Assembly: GCA_026984045.1 (NCBI GenBank)
Contig: JALSSV010000086.1
Span: forward strand, 1 to 35,860
From: Chromatiales bacterium
GTDB lineage: Bacteria; Pseudomonadota; Gammaproteobacteria; UBA6429; Thiohalophilaceae
Reading direction: 5' to 3'
Length of the DNA stretch: 35,860 nucleotides
Positions 2,392-30,024 of this stretch are shown here, piece after piece. Under the pieces are notes generated by a model. The model did no database searches and was not told where the DNA came from. It saw only the letters and a list, made by a program, of their open reading frames with translations. Position 1 is the stretch's first letter. Each line of letters begins with the position of its first letter. A program made the translations under genes and the position numbers.

Positions 2392-2754
2392 ATGGCTACG
2401 ATTCTGGCAGTTGACGATTCCGCCTCCATGCGACAGATGGTCGCCTTCACCCTCAAGGGCGCCGGGCACGACGTGGTGGAAGCCACCGATGGCGTCGATG
2501 CCCTGAACAAGGCGAAAGGCAAGCGCTTCGACCTGGTGATCTCCGACGTGAACATGCCCAACATGGACGGGATCACCCTGATCCGGGAGCTGCGCAGCCT
2601 GCCGGCCTTCAAGTTCACGCCGATCCTGATGCTCACCACCGAAAGCACGGCCGACAAGAAACAGGAAGGCAAGCAGGCAGGCGCTACCGGCTGGATCGTC
2701 AAACCCTTCAATCCCGATCAGTTGCTGGCCACCATCCGCAAGGTGCTGGGCTGA
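2392..2754 (+). CDS. cheY: Chemotaxis response regulator CheY
   Basis: 120 aa single receiver domain. The full active site is present: acidic pair D8-D9, phospho-acceptor D52 in SDVNMPNMDG, T82 in MLTTES and K104 in IVKPF. There is no output domain. Phosphorylated by CheA, it would bind the flagellar switch or act as a phosphate sink. The conserved KKQEGKQAGATGWIVKPF segment is typical of CheY proteins encoded next to CheA in non-enteric operons. It is followed 25 bases later by cheA. No cheZ lies in this operon, so dephosphorylation must rely on another protein or on intrinsic turnover. Confidence 0.95.
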   Translation: MATILAVDDSASMRQMVAFTLKGAGHDVVEATDGVDALNKAKGKRFDLVISDVNMPNMDGITLIRELRSLPAFKFTPILMLTTESTADKKQEGKQAGATGWIVKPFNPDQLLATIRKVLG

Positions 2755-2779: not shown

Positions 2780-4816
2780 ATGAGCATCGACCTTTCCCAG
2801 TTTCTCGAAACCTTCTACGAGGAGAGTTTCGAAGGCCTGGAGACCATGGAGCAGGAGCTCCTCAATCTGGAATCGGGCAACCACGATCCGGAAACCATCA
2901 ATAGCATCTTCCGCGCCGCCCATTCCATCAAGGGCGGTAGCGGTACCTTCGGCCTCGACAGCGTGGCCGAATACACCCACGTGTTGGAAACCCTCCTCGA
3001 CGAGATGCGCGACGGCCGCCGGGCCGTCACCCCGGAGATCATCGCGCCGCTGCTCGAATCGGTCGACGTGCTGCGTGACATGCTCACCGCCCTGCGCGCC
3101 GGCGAGGAACCGGATCCGGCCCCCGTGGCCGCCTCCCGGCAGAAGCTCGAAGCCGTGCTCGGCGCCGCCGGGGGCGGGGATGCCGCGTCCGCCGCCACCG
3201 AAGCGACTCCCGGCGCCCCGGCGGCAGGCTGGCAGATCCGCTTCCGCCCCCATCCCCACCTGCTGCAGACCGGCAACGATCCGGTGCGCATGTTCCGTGA
3301 ACTGGCCGAGCTGGGCGACCTCGAGGTGGAGGTCGACACCGACGCCCTCCCGGCCCTGGCCAATCTCGCCCCGGAGGATTGTTATCTCGGCTGGACGCTC
3401 ACCCTGCGCGGCGACGTGGCCCGGGAAGCGGTGGATGAGGTGTTCGACTGGGTGGAGGGCGACTGCGACCTGACCATCACCCCGCTCGATTCGGCGCCGC
3501 CTGAAACGCCTTCGGCACCGGCCGAGACCGCCGCCGCTACGCCATCGCCGGCGGCGAAGGCTGACGCCCCGGCGGCGTCCGCCCCGGCAAAGAAGCCGAC
3601 GCGGCCAGCCGAGGCCAGCTCCATCCGCGTGGCCATCGACAAGATCGACGAACTCATCAACATGATGGGCGAGCTGGTGATCACCCAGTCCATGCTCAGT
3701 CAGCTCGGCGAAGCGGAACAGTTCGGGCCGGAGCACATCGAGCGCCTGCGCGACGGCCTGGCCCAGCTCGAACGCAATACCCGCGAGCTGCAGGAAAACG
3801 TCATGCGCATCCGCATGCTGCCCATCAGCTTCGCCTTCCAGCGCTTTCCGCGGCTGGTCCACGACCTGGGCGCCAAGCTGGGCAAGCAGGTGGAGCTGCA
3901 ACTGTCCGGCGAACAGACGGAACTGGACAAGACGGTCATGGAGAAGATCGGCGATCCGCTGGTGCATCTGGTGCGCAACTCACTCGATCACGGCATCGAA
4001 ACCCCCGAGCAGCGGCGCGCGGCGGGCAAGCCGGAAACGGGCATCATCCACCTCAATGCCTTCCACGAAGGCGGCAACATCGTCATCGAGATCCGCGACG
4101 ACGGTGCCGGCCTCAACCGGGATCGGATCCTGGCCAAGGCCATCGAGAACGGCCTGGTCGGCCCGGACGAGCACCTGAGCGACGAACAGATCCACGATCT
4201 GATTTTCGCCCCCGGCTTCTCCACCGCCGAGGTGGTGTCGGACGTCTCGGGCCGCGGCGTGGGCATGGACGTGGTGCGCAAGAACATCCGCGCTCTGGGC
4301 GGGACGGTGGAAGTGCACAGCGAGCCGGGCCAGGGCTCCACCTTCACCATTCGCCTGCCGCTGACCCTGGCAATCCTCGACGGCCAGAGCGTGCGGGTGG
4401 GCAAGGAAATCTACATCGTGCCGCTGATCGCCATCATCGAATCGCTGCAGGTGGATCCCGAGGCCGTCAAGTCGGTGACCGGCGCGGCGCAGGTCTACTG
4501 CCTGCGTGACGAATACATCCCCATCGTGCACCTGGCCGAAGTGTTCGGCGTGCAGGCCGAGGCCCGCCGCCTGGAAGACGGCCTGCTGGTGGTGGTGGAA
4601 GGCGAGGGCAGCAAGATCGCCCTGTTCGTGGACGACCTGCTCGGCCAGCAGCAGGTGGTGATCAAGAGCCTGGAAACCAACTTCCGCAAGGTGGACGGCA
4701 TCTCCGGCGCCACCATCCTCGGCGATGGCACCGTGGCGCTGATCCTCGACATCACCGGCCTCATCGGCCTGTCGCGTACGCGGGCGACGGGCAGTGATGC
4801 CACCCGCGCGGCCTGA
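2780..4816 (+). CDS. cheA: Chemotaxis histidine kinase CheA
   Basis: 678 aa. The Hpt domain (about 1-105) carries phospho-acceptor H48 in AAHSIKGGSG. A P2-like response-regulator docking domain follows at about 150-235 (WQIRFRPHPHLL, then EVEVDTDALP). An Ala/Pro-rich linker leads to the dimerisation helices (about 280-345). The HATPase domain (about 350-530) has the N box with N400 in HLVRNSLDHG, DDGAG at 440-444 and the GRGVGMDVV lid motif. The CheW-like regulatory domain closes the protein (about 535-670, LAILDGQSVRVG). All catalytic elements are intact. A leader with AGGGAGG precedes the ATG. Cytoplasmic, coupled to receptors through CheW and phosphorylating CheY and CheB. Confidence 0.96.
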   Translation: MSIDLSQFLETFYEESFEGLETMEQELLNLESGNHDPETINSIFRAAHSIKGGSGTFGLDSVAEYTHVLETLLDEMRDGRRAVTPEIIAPLLESVDVLRDMLTALRAGEEPDPAPVAASRQKLEAVLGAAGGGDAASAATEATPGAPAAGWQIRFRPHPHLLQTGNDPVRMFRELAELGDLEVEVDTDALPALANLAPEDCYLGWTLTLRGDVAREAVDEVFDWVEGDCDLTITPLDSAPPETPSAPAETAAATPSPAAKADAPAASAPAKKPTRPAEASSIRVAIDKIDELINMMGELVITQSMLSQLGEAEQFGPEHIERLRDGLAQLERNTRELQENVMRIRMLPISFAFQRFPRLVHDLGAKLGKQVELQLSGEQTELDKTVMEKIGDPLVHLVRNSLDHGIETPEQRRAAGKPETGIIHLNAFHEGGNIVIEIRDDGAGLNRDRILAKAIENGLVGPDEHLSDEQIHDLIFAPGFSTAEVVSDVSGRGVGMDVVRKNIRALGGTVEVHSEPGQGSTFTIRLPLTLAILDGQSVRVGKEIYIVPLIAIIESLQVDPEAVKSVTGAAQVYCLRDEYIPIVHLAEVFGVQAEARRLEDGLLVVVEGEGSKIALFVDDLLGQQQVVIKSLETNFRKVDGISGATILGDGTVALILDITGLIGLSRTRATGSDATRAA

Positions 4817-4831
4817 CGGAGACGCAGCGAG

Positions 4832-5347
4832 ATGGAAGCCATGCAGATCGATTCGGCCCTCACCGGCGAGGTGGGCGACGGCAGCGAAGACCAGGTGCTG
4901 ACCTTCACCCTGGCCGACGAGGAATACGGCGTGGACATCCTGCGCGTGCAGGAGATCAAGGGCTGGGATTCGGTCACCGGCATCCCCAACACCCCCGACT
5001 ACATCCGTGGCGTAATCAACCTGCGCGGCACCATCGTGCCGGTGATCGACATGCGCCTGCGCTTCGGCCTGCCGCCGCTCGAGTACGGCCCGCTCACGGT
5101 GGTCATCGTGCTGCGGGTGGAGAGCGGCAGCCGCACGCGCATCATGGGGATCGTGGTGGATGCCGTCTCCGATGTCTACAACCTGCCCGAGGATCGGATC
5201 CGCCCGGCGCCCGACTTCGGCGGCGCGGTGGAGAGCGAGTTCATCACCGGCCTGGCCGGCGTCGAGGACAAGATGGTGATCGTGCTGGACGTGGATCGGC
5301 TGCTCAATTCCCGCGAACTGGCGGTGATGGACAGCCTGGGCGAATGA
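4832..5347 (+). CDS. cheW: Chemotaxis adaptor CheW
   Basis: 171 aa single CheW domain linking receptors to CheA. Characteristic segments include LTFTLADEEYGVDILRVQEI, GVINLRGTIVPVIDMRLRFG and GIVVDAVSDVYNL. A short acidic N-terminal extension of about 20 residues precedes the domain. It starts 15 bases after cheA and ends 13 bases before parA, consistent with one transcript. This is the only cheW in the window. Confidence 0.95.
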   Translation: MEAMQIDSALTGEVGDGSEDQVLTFTLADEEYGVDILRVQEIKGWDSVTGIPNTPDYIRGVINLRGTIVPVIDMRLRFGLPPLEYGPLTVVIVLRVESGSRTRIMGIVVDAVSDVYNLPEDRIRPAPDFGGAVESEFITGLAGVEDKMVIVLDVDRLLNSRELAVMDSLGE

Positions 5348-5360
5348 ACGGCAGGGGAAC

Positions 5361-6137
5361 ATGCGCATGCTGGCCGTAATCAACCAGAAGGGCGGGGTGG
5401 GCAAGACCACCACCACCCTCAACCTGGCCCATGCCCTGGCCCGTCAGGGGCGGCGCGTGCTGGCCATCGATCTCGATCCCCAGGCCCATCTCACCGCCGG
5501 CTTCGGTGCCCTGCTGCACGAACAGGCCGGTGTCGACAGCCTGATGCTGGGCGAAGCGGCGCTGGCCGAGCGGACCCTGCCGGTGCGCGAACGGCTCGAC
5601 CTGCTGCCCGCCGGCAGCCGTCTGGGTGAACTGGAGCACCTGCAGGAAGGCGGCGCCCGTCGCGGCTTTTTGTTGCGCGATACCCTCGGTGAGGCCGATG
5701 ACTACGATGCCGTGCTGATCGACTGCCCACCCTCGTCGGGGATCCTGGGCATGAACGCCCTGCTGGCCTGCCGCGAGGTGCTGATTCCGGTGGCCGGGGA
5801 TTTCTTCTCCCTGCAGGGGCTGGCGCGGCTGATGGCCATCTTCGAACACATCGAGTCCACCCTGAATCGGGAGATCCGCAAGTGGGTGGTGCTCACCCGC
5901 TTCCACGCGCGGCGGCGACTGGCCCGCGAGGTGCGCGACAAGATCCTCGACTACTTTCCCGACCGGGTGCTGCGCACGCCGATCCGCGAATCGGTGGCGC
6001 TGGCCGAGAGCCCCGGCTTCGGCCAGACCATTTTCGAATACCAGGCCCGCAGCCACGGCGCCCGGGACTATCAGGCCCTGGCCGAGGACCTCTGGCAGGG
6101 ACAGACCATGACCAGCGAGGCACCTTGCCATGCCTGA
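5361..6137 (+). CDS. parA: ParA/MinD-family ATPase of the chemotaxis operon
   Basis: 258 aa. The deviant Walker A motif KGGVGKTTTT lies at about residues 10-19 with the signature lysine, DLDPQAH follows at about 37, and the switch/Walker B region is AVLIDCPPS. ParA proteins form ATP-dependent gradients on the nucleoid and position cargo. Homologues in chemotaxis operons, such as PpfA of Rhodobacter sphaeroides, segregate cytoplasmic receptor clusters, while ParC of Vibrio places polar arrays. Here it sits between cheW and a soluble receptor, which favours the PpfA-like role. The ATG at 5367 (MLAVINQKGG) has better spacing from AGGGG than the one at 5361, so the protein may be two residues shorter. 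The end overlaps the next small ORF by 8 bases. Confidence 0.9.
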   Translation: MRMLAVINQKGGVGKTTTTLNLAHALARQGRRVLAIDLDPQAHLTAGFGALLHEQAGVDSLMLGEAALAERTLPVRERLDLLPAGSRLGELEHLQEGGARRGFLLRDTLGEADDYDAVLIDCPPSSGILGMNALLACREVLIPVAGDFFSLQGLARLMAIFEHIESTLNREIRKWVVLTRFHARRRLAREVRDKILDYFPDRVLRTPIRESVALAESPGFGQTIFEYQARSHGARDYQALAEDLWQGQTMTSEAPCHA

Positions 6138-6288
6138 ACGTGCAGCCCCAGATCCCGACAAGGCCCGACGTCTGCGGCGTCCGCGCAAGCGCCGCGTCAC
6201 CGAGTGGCCCTGGCGGACGCGTGTGGCGGCGAGCCGCTGCTGCATGCTGGACGAAATCCTGGCCGGGATTTCCTTCTCCGGTGGCTGA
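6130..6288 (+). CDS. Small Arg-rich ORF between parA and the receptor gene
   Basis: 52 aa. The ATG overlaps the parA stop by 8 bases and is preceded by GAGG nine bases upstream, an arrangement typical of translational coupling. The N-terminal half is strongly basic (KARRLRRPRKRRVTEWPWR), and the second half is short and hydrophobic with a CC pair. No family is recognised. ParA-type ATPases are normally stimulated by short basic peptides of their partners, so a ParA-activating role is conceivable, but this is inference. It may also be non-coding spacer, since no second copy is available for comparison. Confidence 0.35.
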   Translation: MPERAAPDPDKARRLRRPRKRRVTEWPWRTRVAASRCCMLDEILAGISFSGG

Positions 6289-6309
6289 CTTTCTTTCCAA
6301 GGAGCGAAC

Positions 6310-9216
6310 ATGACTGCCAAGAAACAGAAACTGGGCTTCGACCCGCTGGCCTGGATGAACGAGGAGGCGCCGCCGGCCGACGAACCGGCGCCCGCCGCCA
6401 CCCGGCGCACCGCAAAGCGCAAGGCCGTTCGCAAGGCGCCGGCCGGGGACGGCCTGCCGCTCGACGTGGAGACCCTGGAGAAGAGCTTCGCCAAACTCGA
6501 GCCCAAACTGGAGACGGTGGTGAGCCGCTTCTACGAGGAGCTGTTCGCCCGCCATCCCGAAGTCAAACCGCTGTTCGCCAACACGAACCCGGCGCGCCAG
6601 CAGCAGAAACTGGCGGGCGCCCTGAAACTGGTGGCCGCCAACCTGCGCAAGCCCGACGCCCTGGTCAAGGCCCTGCGGGAGATGGGCGCGCGCCACCAGG
6701 GCTATGGCGCCCGGCCCGAACACTATGCCGCCGTGGCCGACACCCTGCTCGACGTGATGGGCGAGGCCGCCGGTCGCGCCTGGACCCGTCCCGTGCAGAA
6801 GGCCTGGCGGGAGGCACTGAACCTGATCGCCGAGACCATGCTCGGCGCCTACGAAAAGGAGGACGAACCCATGCCCATGACAGCAACGGCCGCGGCCGCG
6901 CAGGGCGGCGAAATACTCGGCGACATCGAGGTGCTCAAGCAGATCCTCGAACACGCGCCCATCAACATCATGATTGCCGATGCCGACGAGAACATCGTGT
7001 TCGTCAACCGGCAGGCCCGCGAGGTGCTGACCGAACTGGAAGACGAGCTGGCCAAATACCTGCCCGGGTTCAAGGCCGAGATGGTGCTCGGCGGCAGCAT
7101 CCATCGCTATCACAAGGATCCGGAGGCCATCAAGCGCATCCTGCATGCCCTGCAACCGGGCGAGGTGCGCAAGGGCGTGATCACGCCGGGTCCCTTCCTC
7201 TTCGAGCACGAAACGCGGGTGCTGGCCGATGCCGAGGGCAACCGCCTCGGTTACGTGGTGCAGTGGCACGACAACACCGAGCGCCGGCGCAAGGAAGAGG
7301 AAGCCTTCCGCCTGCAGCGGGCGCTCGACAGCGCCCAGACCGCGTTCATGATGATCGACCGGGATCTGGTGATCACCTACATCAACGACACCACCCGGGA
7401 ACTGCTCAAGTCCCACGAGGACACCCTCAAGAGCCTGTACCCGGCGTTCGATGCCGATGCCATCGTCGGCACCTGTATCGACATCTTCCACAAGAACCCG
7501 GCACATCAGCGCCGGCTGCTGTCGGATCCGGCCAACCTGCCCTACGAAACCGACATCCAGGTGGGCCCGCTGGTGTTCCACATCCGGGTCGGCGCCATCC
7601 ACGATCTGGACGGCAACTACATCGGCAACACCCTCGAATGGGACGACGTGACCGAGAAGCGCGCCTCCGAGCTGGAGGTGATGCGCCTCAAGTCGGCCAT
7701 CGACGGCGCCACCACCAACATCATGCTCTGTGACGAGAACCTGAACATCACCTACGCCAACCCGGCCGTGGTGCAGATGCTGGAGAACCGCCTGCCCGAG
7801 CTGCGCAAGACCTGGCCGAGTCTGGATCCGCGCAACCTGGTGGGTCAGAACATCGACCAGTTCCACAAGCATCCCGAACACCAGCGGGTGCTGCTGTCCG
7901 ATCCGGCGCGCCTGCCGTATCGCGCGGCCATCCAGGTCGGCGATCTCGATTTCGAGGTCAATGCCACCATGGTCACCGATGCCGACGGCAACTACATGGG
8001 CAACATGGTCGAGTGGAAGGATCTCACCGAACAGCGCCAGGCCGAGCAGGCCATCGAACGGCTGATCAACGCCGCCATCGAAGGGCGCCTCGACGAACGG
8101 CTGGACGCCGACAACTACCAGGGCTTCATGCAGGAGCTGGCCATGAGCATCAACCGGCTGATGGATGCCATCGTCGAGCCGGTGCAGGCCGGCAAGGAAG
8201 CCCTCAAGCGGCTGGCCGAGGGCGATCTGACCCGCGTCATGGACGGCGAGTTCCAGGGCGAGTTCACCGAACTGCAGGATGCCATCAACAGCTCCATCAA
8301 CAACCTCAAGGGCATGGTGGGGCAGATCATCACGGCAGCCGGCAGCATCACCGCCAGCGCCGGTGAAATCTCGCGCGGCAACCAGGATCTCAGCCAGCGC
8401 ACCGAGGAACAGGCGTCCAGTCTCGAGGAGACCGCCTCGAGCATGGAGCAGATGACCTCCACCGTGCGCCAGAATGCCGACAATGCCCGCCAGGCCAACC
8501 AGCTTGCCGCCGCGGCCAGCGAACAGGCCAGCAAGGGCGGCGAAGTGGTCAACAAGGCCGTGGAAGCGATGGCCGACATCAACCAGTCGAGCCGCAAGAT
8601 CGCCGACATCATCGGCGTGATCGACGAAATCGCCTTCCAGACCAACCTGCTGGCCCTCAACGCGGCGGTGGAAGCGGCGCGCGCCGGCGAGCAGGGACGC
8701 GGCTTCGCGGTGGTGGCCGGCGAGGTGCGCAACCTGGCCCAGCGTTCCGCGGGGGCTGCCAAGGAGATCAAGGCCCTGATCAGCGACAGCGTGGACAAGG
8801 TGGAGGATGGCTCCAAGCTGGTGGACGAATCGGGCCGCACCCTGAACGAAATCGTCGAGGCGGTGCGCAAGGTCAGCGACATCATCGCCGAGATTGCCGC
8901 CGCCAGCCAGGAACAGTCGAGCGGCATCGAGGAAGTCAACAAGGCCGTCTCGCAGATGGACGAGATGACCCAGCAGAACGCCGCGCTGGTGGAAGAGGCG
9001 GCGGCGGCCTCCGAGTCGATGGAAGAGCAGGCCCGGCAGCTCATGGAGCTGGTGGGTTTCTTCAAGACCGGCGACGAGCACTTCGCCGAACCGCCTGCAC
9101 GCCCGGCGCCGGCCCCGGCTTCTGCCCAGGCGGTGGCCGATGCGGCCCCGGCACCGCGCCCGGCGCATCGCCCCGCCGCGCCGGCCGAGGACGACGACGA
9201 GTGGGAAGAGTTCTAG
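6310..9216 (+). CDS. Soluble globin-PAS-PAS-PAS chemoreceptor with CheR-tether pentapeptide
   Basis: 968 aa with no transmembrane segment. The Pro/Lys/Arg-rich N-tail (1-50) is followed by a globin domain (about 52-190) close to Vitreoscilla-type haemoglobin: [16 protein letters not shown], Tyr B10 candidate Y75, CD1 Phe F89 and proximal His candidate H129 in GARHQGYG. Three PAS domains follow (about 213-325, 335-450, 460-575). Each contains an HK-x-P motif (H268, H394, H519) and, about 50 residues later, a Trp in the last strand (W319, W444, W569). That His/Trp pair matches the haem-PAS pattern of Aer2. Then come HAMP-like repeats (about 580-670) and the MCP hairpin with [20 protein letters not shown] near 780. 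The C-terminus is EWEEF, a CheR-binding pentapeptide. An AAGGAG site precedes the ATG. It stands where aer2 (mcpB) stands in Pseudomonas che2. Confidence 0.93.
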
Positions 9217-10068
9217 ATGACCACCTCGGCAGCGGCGGCTGCCGGGCGCGAACGGGAGTTCGAGCTCGGTGACGCCGAGTTCGAGACCATCCGCCGCCTG
9301 GTCGGCGAGCGCACCGGCATCGTGCTCTCCGACGCCAAGCGCGACATGGTCTATGGCCGCCTGGCCCGCCGCCTGCGGGCCCTGGGCCTGCGCAGCTTCG
9401 GCGACTACCTGGCCCGCCTGCTGGACGGCGACGCCGAGGAGATGGTGGCCTTCACCAATGCCCTGACCACCAATCTCACCGCCTTCTTCCGCGAGGCCCA
9501 CCATTTCGACTATCTGCAGCAGACCCTCCTGCCGACCCTGCTGCGCGAGAAGCGCCAGCGGCGCCTGCGGATCTGGTCGGCCGGCTGCTCCACGGGCGAG
9601 GAGCCCTATTCCATCGCCATGGTGGTGCGCGAAACGGTGCCCGACGACTGGGACGCGAAGATCCTCGCCACCGATCTCGACAGCGACGTGGTCAGTCACG
9701 CCCGGGAAGGCATCTACCGCGCCGAACGGGTCGAGGGCCTGAGCCGCGAACGGCTCAGGCGCTGGGTGCGCCGGGGCAGGGGGGACAAGGCCCACCTGGT
9801 GCGCATGGCGCCGGCCCTGCGCGAGATCATCACCTTCAAGACCCTGAACCTGATGGAGAGCTGGCCCATGCGCGGGCCCTTCGATCTGATCTTCTGCCGC
9901 AACGTGGTGATCTACTTCAGCAAGGAGACCCAGCGGGTGCTGTTCGATCGTTTCGCCGATTACCTGCCCAGCGGGGGGCATCTGTTCATCGGTCATTCCG
10001 AATCCCTGCACCGGGTCAGCGATCGCTTCCGTCTGCTTGGCCAGACCATCTACCGGAAGGTGAAATAG
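9217..10068 (+). CDS. cheR: Chemoreceptor methyltransferase CheR
   Basis: 283 aa. The N-terminal helical domain binds receptor helices (FETIRRLVGERTGIVLSDAK). The SAM-binding domain has IWSAGCSTGEEPYSIAM and the FCRNVVIYF motif. It methylates receptor glutamates. The beta-subdomain that docks C-terminal pentapeptides is expected between about 175 and 215, and the neighbouring receptor ends in EWEEF, a matching ligand. The ATG directly follows the receptor's TAG stop with no gap, so the genes are translationally coupled. Confidence 0.95.
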   Translation: MTTSAAAAAGREREFELGDAEFETIRRLVGERTGIVLSDAKRDMVYGRLARRLRALGLRSFGDYLARLLDGDAEEMVAFTNALTTNLTAFFREAHHFDYLQQTLLPTLLREKRQRRLRIWSAGCSTGEEPYSIAMVVRETVPDDWDAKILATDLDSDVVSHAREGIYRAERVEGLSRERLRRWVRRGRGDKAHLVRMAPALREIITFKTLNLMESWPMRGPFDLIFCRNVVIYFSKETQRVLFDRFADYLPSGGHLFIGHSESLHRVSDRFRLLGQTIYRKVK

Positions 10069-10070
10069 CC

Positions 10071-10712
10071 ATGGCCGCCCGCCCGGCTCCCGTCGCTCCC
10101 GCCACCAGTCTGCGCGGTTTCGAACACATCAACCGCTACTGGGACAAGGTGCATCATCTGTATGCGGCCAAGATCCTGCCGGGCCAGTTTTACGTGACCC
10201 TGCACGACGAGGCCATCGTCACCGTGCTCGGCTCCTGCGTGGCCGCCTGCATCCGCGACCGGGTGTTCGGGATCGGCGGCATGAACCACTTCATGCTGCC
10301 CGACGACGGCGGGGGCGAGCGGCTGCTGCAGCCGGGCAGCCTGGCCACCCGCTACGGCAACCATGCCATGGAACAGCTCATCAACGAGATCCTGAAAAAC
10401 GGCGGGCGGCGGGAGAACCTGGAAGTGAAGATCTTCGGCGGTGGCCAGATCATCCGCAACATGCGCACCCTCGATATCGGCCGGCGCAACATCGACTTCG
10501 TGCACGAATATATCCGCACCGAAGGGCTGACGCTGGTGGCCGAGGACACGGGCGACATCCATCCGCGCAAGGTCATGTATTTCCCGGCCACCGGCCGCGC
10601 CCGGGTCAAGCGCCTGCGGCACATGCACAACGACACCATCGTCCGCCGCGAACTGGACTACCGCGAGGAGCTGGTGCAGCAGCCGGTGACCGGCGACGTG
10701 GAGCTGTTCTGA
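10071..10712 (+). CDS. cheD: Receptor glutamine deamidase CheD
   Basis: 213 aa. The catalytic Cys lies in [12 protein letters not shown] (C56) and the catalytic His in GGMNHFMLP (H73), with T51 as the third residue expected from the Thermotoga CheD structure. KIFGGGQ is the further family motif. CheD deamidates receptor glutamines to methylatable glutamates. The N-terminal extension of about 30 residues ([20 protein letters not shown]) is typical of proteobacterial CheD. It begins two bases after cheR and is followed by AAGGAG for cheB. Confidence 0.94.
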
Positions 10713-10722
10713 AGGAGAAGTC

Positions 10723-11823
10723 ATGCAACCGATCCGCGTGCTGATCGTCGACGACTCGGCCCTGGTGCGCCAGGTGCTGAGCGAAATTCTGGCCACCGAT
10801 CCCCGCTTCGAGGTGCTCGGCACCGCCAAGGATCCCTACGACGCCCGGGAGAAGATCAAGCAACTCAATCCCGACGTGCTGACCCTGGACGTGGAGATGC
10901 CGCGCATGGACGGCGTGACCTTCCTGCGCAATCTCATGCGCCTGCGCCCCATGCCGGTGGTGATGATCTCTTCGCTTACCGAGCAGGGGGCCGAGATCAC
11001 CCTGCAGGCCCTGGAGCTGGGCGCGGTGGACTTCGTCTCCAAGCCGAAGATCGGCGTGGCCCAGGGCCTCGAGGAATACGCCGACACCATCCGCGAGAAG
11101 GTGGCCATGGCCGCCCGGGTGGACGTGCAGCCCCTGGCCGACCGCCTGGCCCGCCGCCGGCAGGCCACGCCAGACGATCTGCCCGCCGTGGATCCCAAGC
11201 TCAGTGCCGATGCGGTGATCGCCCGGGGCGGGCGGCGGACCTTCCGCACCACCGAGCGGATCATCGCCATCGGCGCCTCCACCGGCGGCACCGAGGCGAT
11301 CCGCGAGATCCTCGAGGCCCTGCCGGCCGACGCGCCGGGCATCGTGATCAGCCAGCACATCCCGGCCGCCTTCAGCGCCCCCTTCGCGGCGCGCATGGAT
11401 CGCCATTCGGCCATGACCGTCTGCGAGGCCGCCGACGGCCAGCAGATCCTCCCGGGCCACGTCTACATCGCGCCCGGCGATCGGCACCTGCTGGTGGAGC
11501 GTAGCGGCGCCCGCTATCTGTGCCGGCTCAACGACGGCCCGCCGGTCAACCGCCACAAGCCGAGCGTGGACGTGATGTTCCGCGCAGTGGCCCAGCACGT
11601 GGGCCCCAACGCCATCGGCGTGCTGCTCACCGGCATGGGCGACGACGGCGCCCGTGGCCTGCTGGAGATGCGCGAGAACGGCGCGCCCACCCTCATCCAG
11701 GACGAACGCACCTCCGTGGTCTGGGGCATGCCGGGGGAGGCGGCAAGAATTGGCGCGGCCGACGAGGAATTGCCGCTGCCGCGCATCGCCGCCCGCCTGC
11801 TGGCCCTCGCGCGCGCCGAGTGA
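10723..11823 (+). CDS. cheB: Receptor methylesterase/response regulator CheB
   Basis: 366 aa. The receiver domain has D10-D11, phospho-acceptor D56 in [12 protein letters not shown] and K in VSKPK. After a linker of about 40 residues comes the methylesterase domain with the triad S186 (GASTGG), H212 (SQHIPA) and D308 (GMGDDG). It removes methyl groups from receptors under CheA control, opposing CheR. AAGGAG stands upstream of the ATG. It is the last gene of the che operon; a gap of about 230 bases separates it from fliA. Confidence 0.96.
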
Positions 11824-12052: not shown

Positions 12053-12766
12053 ATGTATCCCGTACAGAAGACGCACGAAGCCGACGACCTCATCGAACAG
12101 CACGCGCCCCTGGTGCAGCGCATCGCCTATCACCTCAAGGCCCGCCTGCCGGCCTCGGTGCTGGTGGACGATCTCATCCAGGTGGGCATGATCGGCCTGC
12201 TCGACGCCTGGCAGCAGTACGATCCCAGTCAGGGCGCCAGTTTCGAGACCTACGCCACCATCCGCATCCGCGGCGCCATGCTCGACGAGCTGCGGCGCAA
12301 CGACTGGGCGCCCAAGTCGGTGCACCGCAAGGCCCGCGAACTGCACGACGTGGTCAAGCGCATCGAGGACCGCACCGGGCGCGAGGCCCGGGCCTCGGAA
12401 ATCGCCGCCGAGATGAACATCAGCCTCGAGGAATACCACCGGCTCCTGCAGGAGTCCAACGCCTGCCGCATCCACAGCTTCGTCGATCTGGGCGTGGACG
12501 AGGACGGCCTGGGCCTGGACGGGCGCTCCCATGCCGCCGGCCCCTGCGACGGCCTGCAGGAAGAACAGTTCCGCGACAACCTGATCGAAGCCATCGAGGC
12601 CCTGCCCGAACGGGAGAAACTGGTGGTGAGCCTCTACTACGACGAGGAATTCAACCTGCGCGAGATCGGCGAGATCCTCGGCGTCAGCGAATCCCGGATC
12701 AGCCAGCTTCTGAGCCAGGCCCACAATCGCCTGCGCGGTTTCCTCAGCGACTATACTGGCAAGTAA
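12053..12766 (+). CDS. fliA: Flagellar sigma factor FliA (sigma-28)
   Basis: 237 aa. Region 2 is LVQRIAYHLKARLPASVLVDDLIQVGMIGLLDAWQ-like, with the characteristic FETYATIRIRGAMLDELR. Region 3 holds RASEIAAEM. Region 4 ends the protein with LREIGEILGVSESRISQLLSQA as the recognition helix-turn-helix. It directs RNA polymerase to late flagellar and chemotaxis genes and is normally held by FlgM, which is not in this window. The Shine-Dalgarno is weak. Its probable targets include the promoter at 2002-2028, so the operon upstream of it may be under its control. Confidence 0.95.
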   Translation: MYPVQKTHEADDLIEQHAPLVQRIAYHLKARLPASVLVDDLIQVGMIGLLDAWQQYDPSQGASFETYATIRIRGAMLDELRRNDWAPKSVHRKARELHDVVKRIEDRTGREARASEIAAEMNISLEEYHRLLQESNACRIHSFVDLGVDEDGLGLDGRSHAAGPCDGLQEEQFRDNLIEAIEALPEREKLVVSLYYDEEFNLREIGEILGVSESRISQLLSQAHNRLRGFLSDYTGK

Positions 12767-19927: not shown

Positions 19928-20253
19928 ATCCCTCCCCCTTTGCGTCGCAAGCGACGGGCGGTTTTCTCCCGCCCTTGTCGGGCCGTTCGCAACTCGACCT
20001 ACCAACCCCGTTGCACCGCAAACGAAGCCTGCCGGAGGCTGGAATAACGCGGGTCCAATACGCAGGCGGGGATGGCGGACTTGCCTGAAATCAGATCATT
20101 GGAATGTACTGTAATACTGTAATAAAAGGATTTTTTTCCCGTAGTGTCGGAATTTTGGTATAAGCATGTTGCAGTTGTGGCCATGACCGTTTTCTGTATG
20201 CGGTGAGATCCGGGCTGGCGCATTCAGGCAACCGACACAGATGGGTGAGCAGG
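19928..20253 (+). other. Intergenic region before the ECF sigma gene
   Basis: No gene is seen in these 326 bases. Short hairpins lie at its start (CGTCGC-AA-GCGACG, then GGGCGG/CCGCCC), without a T-run. An AT-rich stretch has the 8-base tandem repeat ACTGTAAT-ACTGTAAT at 20108-20123 and a TGGTATAAG box, extended -10-like, near 20157-20164. These are the probable promoter elements of the sigma factor gene. Confidence 0.4.
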
Positions 20254-20802
20254 ATGCGGATGTTCGTTCACAAGAAAAGCGCACGCTGCCGGTTTCTCGG
20301 GTATCTGGATCGGCTGTATGCCTATGCGCTCAGTCTCACGCGGCAACGTGAACGGGCCTGTGATCTGGTACAGAGCTGTGTTCTGCGGGCCCTTTCGGCC
20401 AAGCGGGTCCCCGAAGACGAACCGGCTTACCGTTCCTGGTTGTTCCGCATCCTGCACAATCTCCATCAGGACGAAGTCCGGCGCGAACAACACTCATTCA
20501 TCAGCCTGGACGAGCCGACATCCGGTGCCCGCAAGGATTCGGCCGGCCCCGCCGCGCTCGCTTCCCTGAGCGTCGATTACCGGGAGCAATGGCTGGACGA
20601 ACTGAGCATCGAAGACGCGCTGGAGAATCTCAGTCGGGAACATTGTGAAATCATCATCCTTGTCGATATCCTCGGTTACAGTTACCGGGAAGCCGCCGGC
20701 ATGCTCGGGATTCCCGAGGGAACGGTCATGAGTCGGATCAGTCGCGCCCGCGCCAGGATGCTGGAAAGGCTCGTGGAAGACGAAGCGGATTCCTGCTCAT
20801 AA
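20254..20802 (+). CDS. ECF-family RNA polymerase sigma factor
   Basis: 182 aa. Sigma region 2 covers FLGYLDRLYAYALSLTRQRE and AYRSWLFRILHNLHQDEVRR. Region 4 has ALENLSREHCEIIILVDILG followed by the helix-turn-helix YREAAGMLGIPEGTVMSRIS. There is no region 1.1 or 3. Such factors respond to envelope or oxidative signals and are held by a membrane anti-sigma factor, here the next gene. The ATG at 20254 is supported by GAGCAGG; the ATG at 20260 is a close alternative. Confidence 0.9.
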   Translation: MRMFVHKKSARCRFLGYLDRLYAYALSLTRQRERACDLVQSCVLRALSAKRVPEDEPAYRSWLFRILHNLHQDEVRREQHSFISLDEPTSGARKDSAGPAALASLSVDYREQWLDELSIEDALENLSREHCEIIILVDILGYSYREAAGMLGIPEGTVMSRISRARARMLERLVEDEADSCS

Positions 20803-20844
20803 CCGGCTGTGGCCATGCCCGCCGCGGGCAGGGAAAACGCGGGC

Positions 20845-20876
20845 CCCTTTTCAAGGACGGCGAGTCATGAAAAGGG
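20845..20876 (+). other. Inverted repeat between ECF sigma and anti-sigma genes
   Basis: CCCTTTTCA at 20845-20853 and TGAAAAGGG at 20868-20876, a perfect nine-base stem with a 14-base loop. No T-run follows, so it is not a classic terminator. It could tune the sigma to anti-sigma ratio. Confidence 0.35.
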
Positions 20877-20955
20877 TGAGGTAACCCTCTACATCACGAT
20901 CCGGTGTCGAAAATCGGTGTTTTCAACCACGAAAAACGGAAATCGGGAGCGTTGC

Positions 20956-21762
20956 ATGCATCGATCCAGCCGTTGGGAACAGTTGAATGCGTACCTGGAT
21001 GGAGAACTCCCGCCCCGGGCCAGAGCCGCACTCGAACGGACACTGCGGACGGATCCGGAACTGGCGCGCGAGTTGGCCAGACTGCGGGCCCTGAAAGCCG
21101 GGTTGCGCCGCGTCTCCCGACGCAGAGGCATGGTTGCACGTCGACCCGTCACCCGCAGAAGTCGTCTGTCACCGGCATGGGCTGGCGCCATGGGATGCCT
21201 CTTGTTGCTGCTGGTCATGGCCGTCTGGTGGCGCTGGCCGGTCGAACCCGGGGCCACGGTGCCCGATCACGACGTCTGGCTGGCTGCCCTGAACGCCCAT
21301 GCGGCCTGGAAATCCTCCCTTGTCCAGCCAACCCCGCTCGCCCACGACCACCACCGGGACGGCGAGCGGGTCGATCTGCGTTCCTGGTCGCCGTTCGTTC
21401 CCGACCTCGGCCGGGCGGGTTTTCGTTTCGATGGCATCACGACGACCGAGAGCGGTGAATCGACCGGCCTGCATGTCGGCTATCTTGGGCGCCATGGTTG
21501 CCGGGTCAGTCTGGTGGTCTTCCGGGAGCCGCGTACTTACGACACCCCCTTGCGGCGAACCCGGTTCCAGGCGGTGACGTTCTATGACTGGCATGCCGGA
21601 CACGGTCACTACCTCCTTCTCGGCCCGAGCATGGATCCCCACCGTCTGGCGGGGATCGCCGGGGTCGTCTGGCGCCTGACCCGCGAACGGTCCGGGCTGG
21701 ATGGCCTGGCGACCCGCATGCTCGTGCAGGCCCGTCATCTGAGCCGTCCTTGTACCGCCTGA
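20956..21762 (+). CDS. Membrane anti-sigma factor partner of the ECF sigma
   Basis: 268 aa. The N-terminal cytoplasmic part (WEQLNAYLDGELPPRARAAL) is the usual anti-sigma helical start. It lacks the H-x3-C-x2-C zinc motif, so it is not a ZAS-type redox sensor. A single membrane helix lies at about 76-95 (AMGCLLLLLVMAVWWRW), followed by a periplasmic domain of about 170 residues containing a His-rich patch (LAHDHHRDGE) and HAGHGHYLL. It is co-oriented with the sigma gene, separated by 153 bases with a hairpin. The assignment rests on topology and position. Confidence 0.75.
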   Translation: MHRSSRWEQLNAYLDGELPPRARAALERTLRTDPELARELARLRALKAGLRRVSRRRGMVARRPVTRRSRLSPAWAGAMGCLLLLLVMAVWWRWPVEPGATVPDHDVWLAALNAHAAWKSSLVQPTPLAHDHHRDGERVDLRSWSPFVPDLGRAGFRFDGITTTESGESTGLHVGYLGRHGCRVSLVVFREPRTYDTPLRRTRFQAVTFYDWHAGHGHYLLLGPSMDPHRLAGIAGVVWRLTRERSGLDGLATRMLVQARHLSRPCTA

Positions 21763-26027: not shown

Positions 26028-27614
26028 TCAGGGCCGGCGCGTCTCCCAGAACTGCTGGGCCAGGCGTTTCATGGCCTGGGCATCCTCGGCCATCTGCGCG
26101 CTGGCCGCCTCGCTGATCTGAATCCGGTCAACGCTGGTTTCCGAGGTCTGCTTGATGGTGACGATGTTCTCGGTCACTTCCTGGGCCACGGCATTCTGCT
26201 CGTCAAGGGCCGCGGCGATCTGGGCGCTCATGTCGTTGATCACGCCAACGGCCTCGGCGATGGCATTGAGCGATGCCACCGCTTCCCGGCCGGCGGAGAC
26301 GCTCTGCTCGGCCTGCTGGCGGCTCTGCTCCATCACGTCCACGGCACGGCGGGAACCGGTCTGTAGCTGCTCGATCATCTCGTGGATCTCGCGGGTGGAA
26401 TCGTGGGTGCGGTTGGCCAGGGTACGCACCTCGTCGGCCACCACGGCGAAGCCGCGGCCCTGTTCGCCGGCCCGGGCGGCCTCGATGGCCGCGTTCAGGG
26501 CCAGCAGGTTGGTCTGCTCGGCGATCTCGCTGATCACGCTCACCACCGAACTGATCTGCTCGCTGTCCTGGCTCAGCTGTGCGATCACCTGGCTGGCCTG
26601 CTCGATGTCGCCGGCCAGGCTCTGGATGGCCTCCATGGTGCGGTCCACGACCTCGCGGCTGTGGCCCACTTCCTCGTTGGCCCGGGTGGCCGATTCGGCC
26701 GACAGCGAAGTGTTGTTGGCCACTTCCTGGATGCTGGCCGACATCTCGGTGACCGCCGTGGCCACCTGATCCGTTTCCTGATGCTGCTGATCGATGGTCT
26801 GGCGGTTGTCGTCCAGCGCCTCGTTCACCCTGCCGGCCTGCTGGACGATGTTGCTGGATGCCTGGTTGATGCGGCCCACGATGCCCGCGGTTTCCGCTTC
26901 CAGGTAGCGCAGGGCCAGCAGCAGGGTGCCCGTTTCGTCGTTGCGGCCGGTGAACACATGGCGGGCGATGGGGTTGTTGAAAATCTTGCGCGCCTTGGCG
27001 ATGCTGCAGCAGATGGGCTTCACCTCCCGCCACATGAACGCCGGCACGATGACCGCGGCCGGCAACAGGGCCAGCAGGGCCTGCATGGGTGAAATCGCGC
27101 CCATGGCCAGGGGCACGGCGGCAGTGGCCAGGGCCACGCCGGCGAAGGCCAGCGCCAGCTTGACCTGGAAGCGCATCGGCCGGCGTTTCAGCCAGCGGGG
27201 CGGTTTGCCCGCATTGAGCCGGGCATATAGTTTCTCGGCGCGGGCGATGTCCTCGGGGTGGGCCTTGCGCCGCACCGACTGGAATTCGACGATTTTACCG
27301 TCTTGCATGATGGGAGTAACATAGGCATTCACCCAGTAGTGATCGCCGTTCTTGCAGCGGTTCTTGACGATGCCCATCCACGACTGGCCGCTCTTGATGG
27401 TGGCCCAGAGATCGGCGAAGGCCGTCGGCGGCATGTCGGGATGGCGCACGATGTTGTGGCTCTTGCCCAGCAGTTCTTCCCGGGTGAAACCGCTGATGGC
27501 CACGAACTCGTCATTGGCATCGGTGATGATGCCCTTGGGATTGGTAGTGGTGAGGATATTGGCATCTTCCGCCACGGGTTGTTCGTGGTTGGTGACGGGG
27601 TAGTTCTTCTTCAT
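26028..27614 (-). CDS. aer: Aerotaxis receptor Aer (PAS-FAD chemoreceptor)
   Basis: 528 aa. The N-terminal PAS domain aligns without gaps to E. coli Aer at the FAD-pocket residues: N34 in TDANDEF, R57-H58 in NIVRHPDMP and W79 in [12 protein letters not shown] membrane hairpin of about 45 residues follows (about 150-197), with almost no periplasmic loop. A HAMP-like segment and the MCP signalling domain ([20 protein letters not shown]) complete it. There is no CheR pentapeptide at the C-terminus. It senses redox state through FAD and so complements the haem-type receptor of the che operon. Divergent from the GGDEF/EAL gene. Confidence 0.93.
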
Positions 27615-27867: not shown

Positions 27868-30024
27868 ATGGATCAGTTCGTCGACAAGGGGCACGGGGTG
27901 CCCATTCGCTTCATGGCGCAGGCGGAAGTGGAGCCGTTGCGCCGGCTGCTAGCCAGGATCCTGCGCACGCTCGTGCGTCTGCCCTGGTTGCATGCCGATG
28001 CCGGCGGGATCTTCCTTGCCGATGGCGAGGATGGTTCCCTGGAGCTGCTCACCCACATCAACTTTCCGCCCCGCATCCAGGGGACCTGCAAGCGGATAAC
28101 GCCCGGTCACTGTCTTTGCGGGCGAGTGGCCGAAATCGGCGAGTTGCTGCACGCGGGCTGCGTCGATCACCGCCATGACATCACCTACCCGGGAATGGCC
28201 GATCACGGCCATTACGTGGTGCCCATCAAGGCCGGGGAGCGGCTGCTCGGCGTGCTGACGCTCTATGTGCCGGCCGGGCACCGCGCCTGTGAAGAGGAAA
28301 CCGAGACCCTGCGCGATTTCGCTGCCACCATGGCGGTGGTCATCCAGACCATGCAGCTTCGCCGTGACAAGGCGCTGATGGACATGGTGGTGGAGCAGAG
28401 CAGCCACGGCGTGATGATTGCCGATCGCGCACAGCGCATCCAATGGGTCAATCCGGCCTTCGAACGGACCACCGGTTACCGCCTCGAGGAGATCCGCGGC
28501 AAGACGCCCCGGCTGCTCTCCTCCGGCCGGCACGATCGCCCCTTCTACCGGCGCATGTGGCGGGCCATCCAGCGCCATGGCCAGTGGCAGGGAGAAATCT
28601 GGAATCGCCGCAAGTCGGGGGAGATCTACCCCGAGTGGCTGAACATCGTGGCCCTGCGCAACGCCCGTGGCGAGCCCGAGCGCTATGCGGCCATGTTCGT
28701 CGATCTGACCGAGATCCGGCGTGCAGAGGAACACATCCGCCGCCTGGCCTATTTCGACAGTCTCACGGGTCTGCCGAACCGCAACCGTTTCCTCGAGGAG
28801 CTGTCACGACTGCTGTCAGAGCAGAGCGGCGTCATCGTGCTGGTGCTGGACCTCGACTGTTTCCACGAGGTGAACGATGGCCTCGGCCATGCGGTGGGCG
28901 ATGCCATGCTCCGCGAAACGGCCCGCCGCCTCGAGTCGCTGGTGGCCGATGGTCTCCTGGCACGCGACAATCCCGACCAGTTCCTGATCGCCGTGCGCCC
29001 GGCCGATCGCGAAGGGCTTGTGGAACACTGCCAGGCCCTGATCGACACCATCGGCCACGCCTTCCGCGAGGACTTTGGCCATGGTCAGCAGGCCCTGAAC
29101 ATGAGTGCCACGCTGGGGGCAGCGATCGCCGCTGGCGATGATGCCCCGGGGGAACTGCTCAAGCGCGCGCTCCAGGCGTTGCGCCAGGCCAAGCGTGACA
29201 GCCGGGGAGGATACCGGGTTTTCGACGCGGAGCTGGGCCGGCAGTCGGAATTCGACAACTTCGTAATGCTCAACGTGCGCCACGTGGTGGCGCGGGGTGA
29301 GCTGGATCTGGCCTATCAGCCCCAGGTCGATGCGCACGGCCGGGTGGTTGGCGCCGAAGTGCTGGTCCGCTGGAACAGCCCGGAACGGGGCGCGATCCCC
29401 CCTGATCGGTTCATTCCCCAGGCCGAGGAGAGCGGCGCCATCGTCGACATCGGGCGCTGGGTGGTCGAACAGGGTGCCGCGCAACTGGCAGCCTGGCGCC
29501 ACGGTGCGATGGTGAGCAGCGACGGTTTCCGGCTGTCCATCAACCTTTCGCCCGCCCAGATGATCGGCTGCGACGTGAGCGACGGTTTTGCGGCCATCTG
29601 CCGCCAGCTTGATCTGCCGCCTTCCGCCCTCGAGGTAGAAATCACCGAAACGGCGCTGGTGCGGGGGTTCGGCCGGATCCGCAGCCAGCTCACGGCGCTG
29701 TCGGACCACGGTTTTCACATCGCCATCGACGATTTCGGCACCGGCTACTCCTCTCTCTCTCGCCTGCATGCCTTTCCCATCGATGTCTTCAAGATCGATC
29801 GCAGCTTCATCGACCGCATGGAAGAGGGCAGCTCCCACCTGGCCATCGTGCGCGCCATGATCGACATGGCTCATTCCCTGGGCTACGCGGTCGTGGCGGA
29901 AGGCGTGGAGACAGAGAGCCAGTTCAACCGCCTAAAGGCCCTGGGTTGTGACCGCTTTCAGGGTTACTGGCTCGCCAGACCGCTGAGCGCCGATGACCTG
30001 GCCGCCTTCGTGCAGGCCCACTGA
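27868..30024 (+). CDS. GAF-PAS-GGDEF(degenerate)-EAL c-di-GMP phosphodiesterase candidate
   Basis: 718 aa, soluble. The GAF domain (about 20-165) contains GHCLCGRVAEIGELLHAGC with a CxC pair. The PAS domain spans about 172-290 (VEQSSHGVMIADRAQRIQWV). The GGDEF domain (about 300-450) reads NPDQF at 368-372 where GGDEF is expected, so cyclase activity is very unlikely. The EAL domain (about 465-715) keeps the catalytic set: E497 in EVLVRW, Asn in SINLSPAQ, Glu in EITETAL, D621-D622 in IDDFGTG, Lys in FKIDRSF and Glu in VVAEGVE. It should hydrolyse c-di-GMP, under control of GAF and PAS signals. GGGAG precedes the ATG. Its place beside aer suggests motility control. Confidence 0.92.
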   Translation: MDQFVDKGHGVPIRFMAQAEVEPLRRLLARILRTLVRLPWLHADAGGIFLADGEDGSLELLTHINFPPRIQGTCKRITPGHCLCGRVAEIGELLHAGCVDHRHDITYPGMADHGHYVVPIKAGERLLGVLTLYVPAGHRACEEETETLRDFAATMAVVIQTMQLRRDKALMDMVVEQSSHGVMIADRAQRIQWVNPAFERTTGYRLEEIRGKTPRLLSSGRHDRPFYRRMWRAIQRHGQWQGEIWNRRKSGEIYPEWLNIVALRNARGEPERYAAMFVDLTEIRRAEEHIRRLAYFDSLTGLPNRNRFLEELSRLLSEQSGVIVLVLDLDCFHEVNDGLGHAVGDAMLRETARRLESLVADGLLARDNPDQFLIAVRPADREGLVEHCQALIDTIGHAFREDFGHGQQALNMSATLGAAIAAGDDAPGELLKRALQALRQAKRDSRGGYRVFDAELGRQSEFDNFVMLNVRHVVARGELDLAYQPQVDAHGRVVGAEVLVRWNSPERGAIPPDRFIPQAEESGAIVDIGRWVVEQGAAQLAAWRHGAMVSSDGFRLSINLSPAQMIGCDVSDGFAAICRQLDLPPSALEVEITETALVRGFGRIRSQLTALSDHGFHIAIDDFGTGYSSLSRLHAFPIDVFKIDRSFIDRMEEGSSHLAIVRAMIDMAHSLGYAVVAEGVETESQFNRLKALGCDRFQGYWLARPLSADDLAAFVQAH

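Follow-up and report, generated by a model that had tools for sequence, protein, structure and literature searches.

A 35,860-nucleotide stretch from a Chromatiales bacterium (contig JALSSV010000086.1; hereafter the window) contains, at positions 6310..9216, a chemoreceptor gene. The gene encodes 968 residues in the order peptide-globin-PAS1-PAS2-PAS3-HAMP-MCP, the last being the methyl-accepting chemotaxis protein (MCP) signalling domain. The reading that we put forward, and to which we give roughly an even chance, is that an O2-sensing haem-PAS core is made in two receptor forms, the longer of which would also carry a ParA-recruiting peptide, and that the globin serves a ParA-positioned chemosensory array as a detachable payload that binds gas. 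Fold statements below rest on Pfam matches and PDB sequence alignments, every count contains related sequences, and the relatives (given L numbers where needed) come mostly from metagenome-assembled genomes. Features lie on the forward (+) strand unless marked (-).

A soluble receptor with three haem-type PAS domains

The frame at 6310..9216 is delimited by translation and Pfam and has no internal stop codon. An assembly error as the source of the globin-PAS fusion is rejected, because the two are joined in one frame in 73 distinct receptors. The hydropathy maximum is 1.26 over 19 residues; because no stretch reaches the usual transmembrane value of 1.6, the receptor looks soluble. Hydropathy and the che neighbours support the original prediction, made from the sequence alone, that the receptor is soluble and occupies the aer2 position in an operon of the F7/Che2 type. 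The residues singled out there are all present in the translation, namely Y75, F89, and H129 in the globin and H268, H394, and H519 in the PAS domains. Pfam recovers the globin (PF00042) and three PAS_8 stretches.

PAS1 (6928..7293; H268, W319, DxT motif at 321-323), PAS2 (7300..7665; H394, W444, DxT at 446-448), and PAS3 (7675..8040; H519, W569, DxT at 571-573) are defined by Pfam, alignment to Aer2, and relatives. The Trp residues follow the His residues by 51, 50, and 50 positions, respectively, in line with the proposed His/Trp pair of each domain. All three domains match the structures of Pseudomonas aeruginosa Aer2 (3vol and 4hi4) with E values from 1.7e-14 to 2.5e-21, and in these sequence alignments their His and Trp coincide with the 'FHK' His and the 'QW' Trp of Aer2. 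Aer2 (3vol/4hi4, and 6ceq) is the closest solved relative of the PAS domains, and Tsr that of the signalling part. Aer2 receptors sense O2 through their PAS haems. We take the aligned His to be H234 of Aer2, and the aligned Trp presumably stabilises O2. In the available text of a review (PMC13401364), H234 is given as the haem ligand of Aer2, and an Aer2 with three haem-PAS domains is described from V. vulnificus.

In an alignment of 41 receptors (that of the window and 40 of 49 listed relatives), H268 and W319 are kept in 41/41, and H394 and W444 in 36/36 rows with letters there; H519 is kept in 39/41 and W569 in 40/41. The DxT motif behind each PAS domain is similarly stable (D321 in 39/41 and T323 in 41/41; D446 in 34/36 and T448 in 36/36; D571 in 39/41 and T573 in 40/41). 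By homology, the PAS chain is predicted to be the O2 sensor, and the proposal of up to four haems per chain, counting the globin, is possible on sequence grounds.

Aer2-type receptors are characterised by two C-terminal HAMPs ahead of a signalling domain of the 36H class. The HAMP region here gives one HAMP_2 match (8116..8307, residues 603-666; PF18947, E 9.1e-14), and residues 457-669 align to Aer2 3vol. The signalling domain (8500..8970, residues 731-887; PF00015 MCPsignal, E 1.8e-59) belongs to a longer segment, residues 620-944, that aligns to Tsr 217-543 with the length almost unchanged. The C-terminal pentapeptide EWEEF (9199..9213) fits the CheR-tether pattern x-[HFYW]-x2-[HFYW] given for Aer2-like receptors in the available text of Ortega 2020 (PMC7184735). 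Among globin receptors, with each C-terminal sequence counted a single time, the pattern is found in 39/45; those without it include L111, L112, L113, and L128.

An F-family globin with a conserved pocket

The globin spans residues 49-184 (6454..6861) and, according to PF00042 and PDB alignments, includes Y75 at B10, F89 at CD1, Q97 at E7, L101 at E11, H129 at F8, and Y139 at G5; we take these helix names over by homology. PF00042 matches residues 73-177 with E 4.6e-15 and 56.6 bits against a cut-off of 22. Membership in the globin-coupled-sensor family is rejected, since the match to Protoglobin PF11563, which represents HemAT-type sensors, is below the cut-off (19.1 versus 25 bits). The closest solved globins are 3wfw, flavohaemoglobins, and Vitreoscilla-type haemoglobin. 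On these matches, the domain is assigned to the F family (flavohaemoglobin/single-domain type). It is the sole PF00042 match found in the source genome.

Conservation of the pocket was counted over 110 globins of at least 110 residues, six of them stand-alone. Tyr B10, Gln E7, and Leu E11 are present in 110/110 across all contexts, and Phe CD1 and His F8 in 108/110 each. At loci with tandem globins, 24/24 globins keep the Tyr, Gln, and His. The only F8 exceptions are L074 and L075, both with Tyr, and these two may be haem-free or Tyr-ligated. In the F8 column of the 41-receptor alignment, 2/37 letters are not His, from L125 (Tyr) and from L140, which is globin-less and misaligned.

A probable internal start behind the globin

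Both anchors, W166 in globin helix H and P217 in PAS1, are present in 45 of 67 receptors; in these, the distance between them varies from 42 to 99 residues, and the commonest value accounts for 14/45. The rest of the chain is nearly fixed, with a spacing of 75 between PAS1 and PAS2 in 45/51, 75 between PAS2 and PAS3 in 55/57, and 46 between PAS3 and HAMP in 61/64 (alignment outliers, 200 twice and 231 once).

Within this variable linker lies a Shine-Dalgarno (SD) sequence, AAGGAGG (6856..6862), 8 nt before an in-frame ATG at 6871. Initiation there would give a short form of 781 residues from Met188 (6871..9216), comprising PAS1-PAS2-PAS3-HAMP-MCP without peptide and globin. An in-frame ATG is present in the linker of 73/73 receptors. 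The best linker ATG is preceded by an SD core in 64/73, as against 240/1674 other in-frame ATGs; nine receptors lack it (L065, L066, L069, L076, L085, L097, L106, L112, and L128), and L112 and L128 lack the CheR-tether C-terminus as well. When the best ATG per window is compared like for like, a strong SD-ATG pair occurs in 65/73 linkers and in 162/1585 control windows.

The excess is also seen in divergent receptors, with strong pairs in 52/57 linkers versus 131/1237 control windows, at a spacing of 6-9 nt in 43/51. In this set the linker SD occurs in all three frames, and the residues that it encodes vary (EE, EG, RRR, and TRS). Synonymous shuffles are equally strong in less than half of the trials for 42/57 linkers, as against 468/1356 other ATGs, and the median value is 0.21 for linkers versus 0.68 for other ATGs. 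Fixed windows were inspected at 31 globin ends elsewhere (between globins, in CheA, CheW, and STAS-like proteins, in stand-alone globins, or at a contig end); an ATG is found in 4 and a strong SD in none. The linker Met precedes Ala in 49/175 cases, versus 134/1683 elsewhere. In L189 (G158:C6), which has parA after the receptor, stop codons interrupt the globin while a PASx2-MCP frame of 788 residues remains open, as would be predicted for a receptor that can initiate behind the globin. Because a linker ATG with a strong SD is present in 52/57 divergent receptors, the gene probably also yields a globin-less short receptor.

An N-terminal peptide that tracks parA

The receptor begins with a peptide containing GFDPLAW (6310..6357), for which we propose a role in ParA recruitment from its linkage to parA. 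The window has a ParA-family ATPase gene at 5361..6137 (AAA_31, E 6.5e-42, with CbiA and ParA matches) in a PpfA-like position. The pattern xDPL[AS]W lies near the N-terminus in 32/39 receptors with an adjoining parA and in 0/62 without parA (Fisher 7e-20, only a guide because the sequences are related). The 62 comprise 29 globin and 33 globin-less receptors, some only distantly related, and the count leaves out 10 rows in which the receptor has an open 5' end or little upstream DNA.

In the 7/39 misses, a different product encoded after parA has the motif, or the receptor has a variant of it. In L047-L050 the motif is on an extra open reading frame (ORF) after parA, whose product also has a Lys-rich stretch and a STAS-like C-terminal part; L053 and L054 have parA downstream of the receptor, followed by a motif-globin-STAS-like protein; and L142 has the variant GYNPLAWM. 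Taken by locus, no more than about 520 nt separate parA from the motif behind it in 50/51 entries; one entry repeats the window, which leaves 49/50 distinct parA loci, the exception being L197, with a DPFDW variant on a STAS-like protein. A random-place control gave 91/1020, but is not clean, because its places could overlap a real motif. Among loci fetched after the rule was formed, 8/9 parA loci obey it and L197 is the variant (three had been partly seen earlier), while none of 8 receptor regions without parA has the motif. The carriers after parA are globin receptors, a globin-less receptor (L140), globin-STAS proteins, and STAS proteins. The peptide thus tracks parA and not any one domain, which fits a ParA contact like that between the receptor TlpT and the ParA homologue PpfA. 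In sum, the sequence linkage makes it likely that the N-terminal peptide recruits ParA.

STAS-like proteins that bear the DPLAW peptide right after parA are seen in L047-L050, L181, L182, and L189, with DPFDW in L197, and may serve as ParA adaptors for receptors that have no such peptide. In L048, the Lys-rich stretch is similar to histone H1-like HC2, in a match below cut-off.

Globins multiplied and captured by other array proteins

In genomes of the same family, the number of globins per receptor is 1, 3 (L036), at least 4 (L044, open at the contig start), or 6 (L046). The L046 receptor has 1839 residues with six globins, four PAS domains, and an MCP domain, confirmed by Pfam, and keeps the His and Trp in all four PAS domains. 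The L142 receptor has two globins. L044 (four globins) and L045 (three) lie at contig ends of the same genome and might be parts of a single gene.

The same globin is found in the kinase CheA. In L043, L045, L046, and L123 it follows the region between the Hpt and dimerisation domains, at an apparent P2-P3 junction; in L142 it directly follows Hpt, at an apparent P1-P2 junction. Pfam places Hpt before the globin and the dimerisation domain after it in L043, L046, and L142. The CheA frames of L051 and L055 contain the start of the same insertion and end inside the globin, L039, open at its start, has a globin and then a kinase, and L183 has a divergent globin-like insert, judged by eye. CheW is split by a globin in L067 and L069 and in identical frames of L110 and L116, and in L037 CheW is followed by three globins. 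Proteins of the type motif-globin-STAS-like occur in L052-L054, L181, and L182; STAS_2 is over the cut-off in L048 and under it in L054, the other STAS-like calls being made by eye. L110 and L116 have the receptor and CheW-globin pair, and no cheA, cheR, cheD, or cheB was found within the fetched 19 kb.

On a tree of the 110 globins, the CheA label changes 4 times, 2 of these forced by strongly supported branches, and the CheW label changes 2 times, 1 of these forced; the tree has few columns, many open forks, a very long L024 branch, and an outgroup that does not form a single clade. Within one operon, that of L043, the CheA globin and the receptor globin are sisters, with 98% support in the Shimodaira-Hasegawa-like approximate likelihood ratio test (SH-aLRT).

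Distribution of the architecture

The architecture recurs in many gammaproteobacterial genomes. The original prediction knew of no described receptor with this exact domain order; globin-PASx3-HAMP-MCP proves to be common in Gammaproteobacteria and is not peculiar to this protein. With residues 1-333 as query, matches are found in 25/40 genomes of the order at E 1e-10, in 49/369 sampled genomes of the class at 1e-25, and in 6/398 sampled genomes of the phylum at 1e-20, the genome of the window included each time. In the order scan, G005, G006, G009, G020, and G039 match best through a short frame for a stand-alone globin; in the class scan, three matches cover PAS1 alone and one is a stand-alone globin, judged by coordinates. 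The same query confirmed no relative in the viral contigs scanned. For the scan of named-species genomes the globin+PAS1 alignment was used, because the globin alone is too variable; among the best 80 of 99 confirmed relatives, the nearest is from the Chromatiales metagenome-assembled genome JALVBM010000270.1, with 87% over globin+PAS1.

Loci L057-L170 contain 86 globin-bearing frames, duplicates included. Of these frames, 54 are globin-PASx3-MCP (28 cut at an end) and 14 are globin-PASx2-MCP (5 cut). Among L130-L141, nine relatives are globin-less PASx3-MCP and three are PASx2-MCP.

Operon and neighbouring genes

The gene order is F7-like, cheY-cheA-cheW-parA-receptor-cheR-cheD-cheB. The gene cheY (2392..2754) encodes a response regulator of 120 residues, ATG 2392 being chosen as start within the longer ORF 2050-2754 (PF00072, E 1.3e-28). 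It is followed by cheA (2780..4816), with the Pfam order Hpt-dimerisation-kinase-CheW-like and no globin match, and by cheW (4832..5347; PF01584, E 2.8e-38). Downstream of the receptor are cheR (9217..10068), cheD (10071..10712), and cheB (10723..11823), all identified by Pfam. The long form of the receptor has an SD of its own, AAGGAG, at 6299..6304.

A small basic ORF of 52 residues with the C-terminus DEILAGISFSGG overlaps the end of parA (6130..6288). Relatives have small ORFs with similar ends in the gap between parA and the receptor (AGLSWFGG, SGLAWNG, and AGLAWHG). With a regular expression drawn up after inspection of the sequences, the end pattern is found in 10/26 gaps longer than 80 nt, in 0/13 shorter gaps, and in 23/1300 shuffles. 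It is possible from the sequence that this ORF encodes a new microprotein.

The source genome is a draft of 2.98 Mb, 99.3% complete, with two flagellin matches and 11 CheW-domain matches over cut-off. Directly after cheB, 12053-12766 (+) encodes a sigma-70 family protein with regions 2, 3, and 4, presumably, from its size, a flagellar-type sigma factor. At 20203-21762 (+) there is an ECF-like sigma factor; the weak anti-sigma candidate behind it, matching zf-HC2, is below cut-off. The window also encodes a second PAS-MCP of 528 residues at 26028-27614 (-) and a GAF-PAS-GGDEF-EAL protein at 27868-30024 (+).

Relation to known systems

The Aer2-type F7 receptors (P. aeruginosa Aer2/McpB, V. cholerae, and the V. 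vulnificus tri-PAS-haem Aer2) likewise are soluble and have the haem-type PAS His/Trp, DxT, HAMP and then MCP, and the CheR-tether pentapeptide. We take the operon order to be as in Che2. The present receptor differs by its F-family globin, the DPLAW peptide, the parA in the operon, and the probable internal start. The available text of Ortega 2020 (PMC7184735) describes PAS/HAMP architectures, and the word globin is absent from its main text.

HemAT also combines a globin and an MCP signalling domain in one soluble receptor; here the globin belongs to the PF00042 F family, three haem-type PAS domains intervene, and the leash is flexible and variable. The nearest printed relative found is the PAS + Bac_globin MCP of Sharma 2018 (PMC6194562), whose available text lists seven such proteins. 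One of these, the Cc-5 MCP of Corallococcus coralloides, has PAS, globin, and MCP domains in one soluble receptor; its globin, however, is a Bac_globin (PF01152) in place of PF00042, and the three Aer2-type PAS domains and the F7-like operon with parA are features of the present system.

In Rhodobacter sphaeroides, the N-terminus of the soluble receptor TlpT is the contact for PpfA (PMC3964821), and ppfA homologues were counted in che operons of 77/206 species (PMC2829493). As here, a ParA homologue gene adjoins a soluble receptor in a che operon, but no globin or haem-PAS is mentioned for TlpT in the available text of the two papers. The globin itself shares the aligned proximal His and Tyr with HGbRL, flavohaemoglobins, and Vitreoscilla haemoglobin, which in contrast are enzymes or stand-alone globins and not receptor domains. 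We take the source of HGbRL (3wfw) to be Methylacidiphilum. A short chemotaxis protein made from an internal start is known in Escherichia coli CheA-short; here the protein is a receptor, and the parts lost would be the globin and the ParA peptide.

Among the matches listed in the searched literature, mostly open-access and available in part, there is no description of the globin-PASx3-MCP architecture, of CheA- or CheW-globins, or of the DPLAW peptide. The parts are known; the combination of an F-family globin with Aer2-type PAS domains was not found among those matches, nor were the CheA/CheW captures, the tandem globins, the parA-linked peptide, or the internal start.

Discussion

We propose that the product of the gene serves as receptor in a cytoplasmic chemosensory array of the F7/Aer2 type, and that it is probably made in two forms. 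The core PAS1-PAS2-PAS3-HAMP-MCP would sense O2 directly with up to three b-haems, and a conformational change in the PAS domains would pass through the DxT motifs and the HAMP region to CheA. The long form would add an N-terminal module consisting of the ParA-recruiting peptide and the F-family globin on a flexible leash. Recruitment of ParA would place the array on the nucleoid and ensure its inheritance. Translation from the conserved internal ribosome-binding site and ATG behind the globin would give the short receptor, which would dilute the long form within the array. Tethered to the array, the globin could bind O2 or NO close to the haem-PAS domains, either buffering gas locally or scavenging NO. 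A payload of this kind could sit on the receptor in one to six copies, in CheA, in or behind CheW, or on a ParA-linked STAS-like protein. We favour, with moderate confidence, a payload over an allosteric input because of the flexible leash, the probable start that bypasses the globin, the variable copy number, and the presence of the globin in three different core proteins that have one array in common. Most likely the globin does not act as the switch, and its distribution suggests that these globins are array cargo rather than ordinary sensor switches.

Several points weigh against this reading. The window has a single globin in the classical N-terminal sensor position, its CheA and CheW have none by Pfam, and a globin within a kinase or coupling protein could itself be a regulatory input. 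The reductase to sustain NO dioxygenation is not fused in the receptor (no FAD/NAD reductase match by Pfam within the 968 residues). The synonymous-codon test is moderate (42/57 below 0.5, with 0.51 for the window), so that part of the SD signal lies in the amino acids (Glu-Glu or Glu-Gly ahead of Met), and the linker SD might reflect a peptide motif or the scar of a fusion; 5/57 divergent receptors lack a strong SD. Furthermore, what looks like a decayed motif occurs without parA in the fetched 19 kb of L116 (KLGSDPLAG) and L110 (KLGSDPFAG).

The globin might instead be a true input, a second, higher-affinity sensor of O2 (or NO or CO) that widens the dynamic range, as in HemAT-type receptors. 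Its N-terminal position and intact Y-B10/Q-E7 distal pocket fit this, and globin receptors are a known sensor type (HemAT; available text of PMC13401364). We nevertheless consider it rather unlikely, since the domain is not of the globin-coupled-sensor family, the leash varies in length while the remaining relay is nearly fixed, the probable internal start skips the globin, and the same globin is found in CheA and CheW.

It is improbable that the linker ATG and SD are a relic of an ancestral globin-less gene fused to a globin, with only the long protein made. In its favour, globin-less PAS-MCP relatives exist, nine PASx3 and three PASx2, and the Met-Ala excess resembles an old N-terminus; on the other hand, even divergent receptors keep the SD, correctly spaced, in any of the three frames and over differing residues, and synonymous codons favour it. 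More improbable still is a mainly structural module, with the globin as a spacer or oligomerisation domain and its haem incidental: the copy number of 1-6 and the location in structural array parts (CheA, CheW) would suit it, but a spacer needs neither the proximal His (108/110) nor Tyr B10 and Gln E7 (110/110), which tandem arrays keep too.

If the globin is a payload, as we favour, the receptor may belong to a class of arrays loaded with F-family globins for gas handling, in which long and short forms set globin dose and ParA linkage by translation and the globins buffer O2 or remove NO near the sensors; this extension is tentative. Chemosensory arrays are usually regarded as devices for signal processing alone. 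If globins are carried by the receptor and equally by the kinase and the coupling protein, these arrays may also control the gas chemistry around their own sensors; in one relative, L046, six globins and four PAS domains add up to ten candidate haem sites on each receptor chain. A short ParA-linked peptide appears to move between unrelated proteins, and the receptor is probably made in two lengths from one gene. Natural receptors with one to six tandem globins could separate sensing from buffering.

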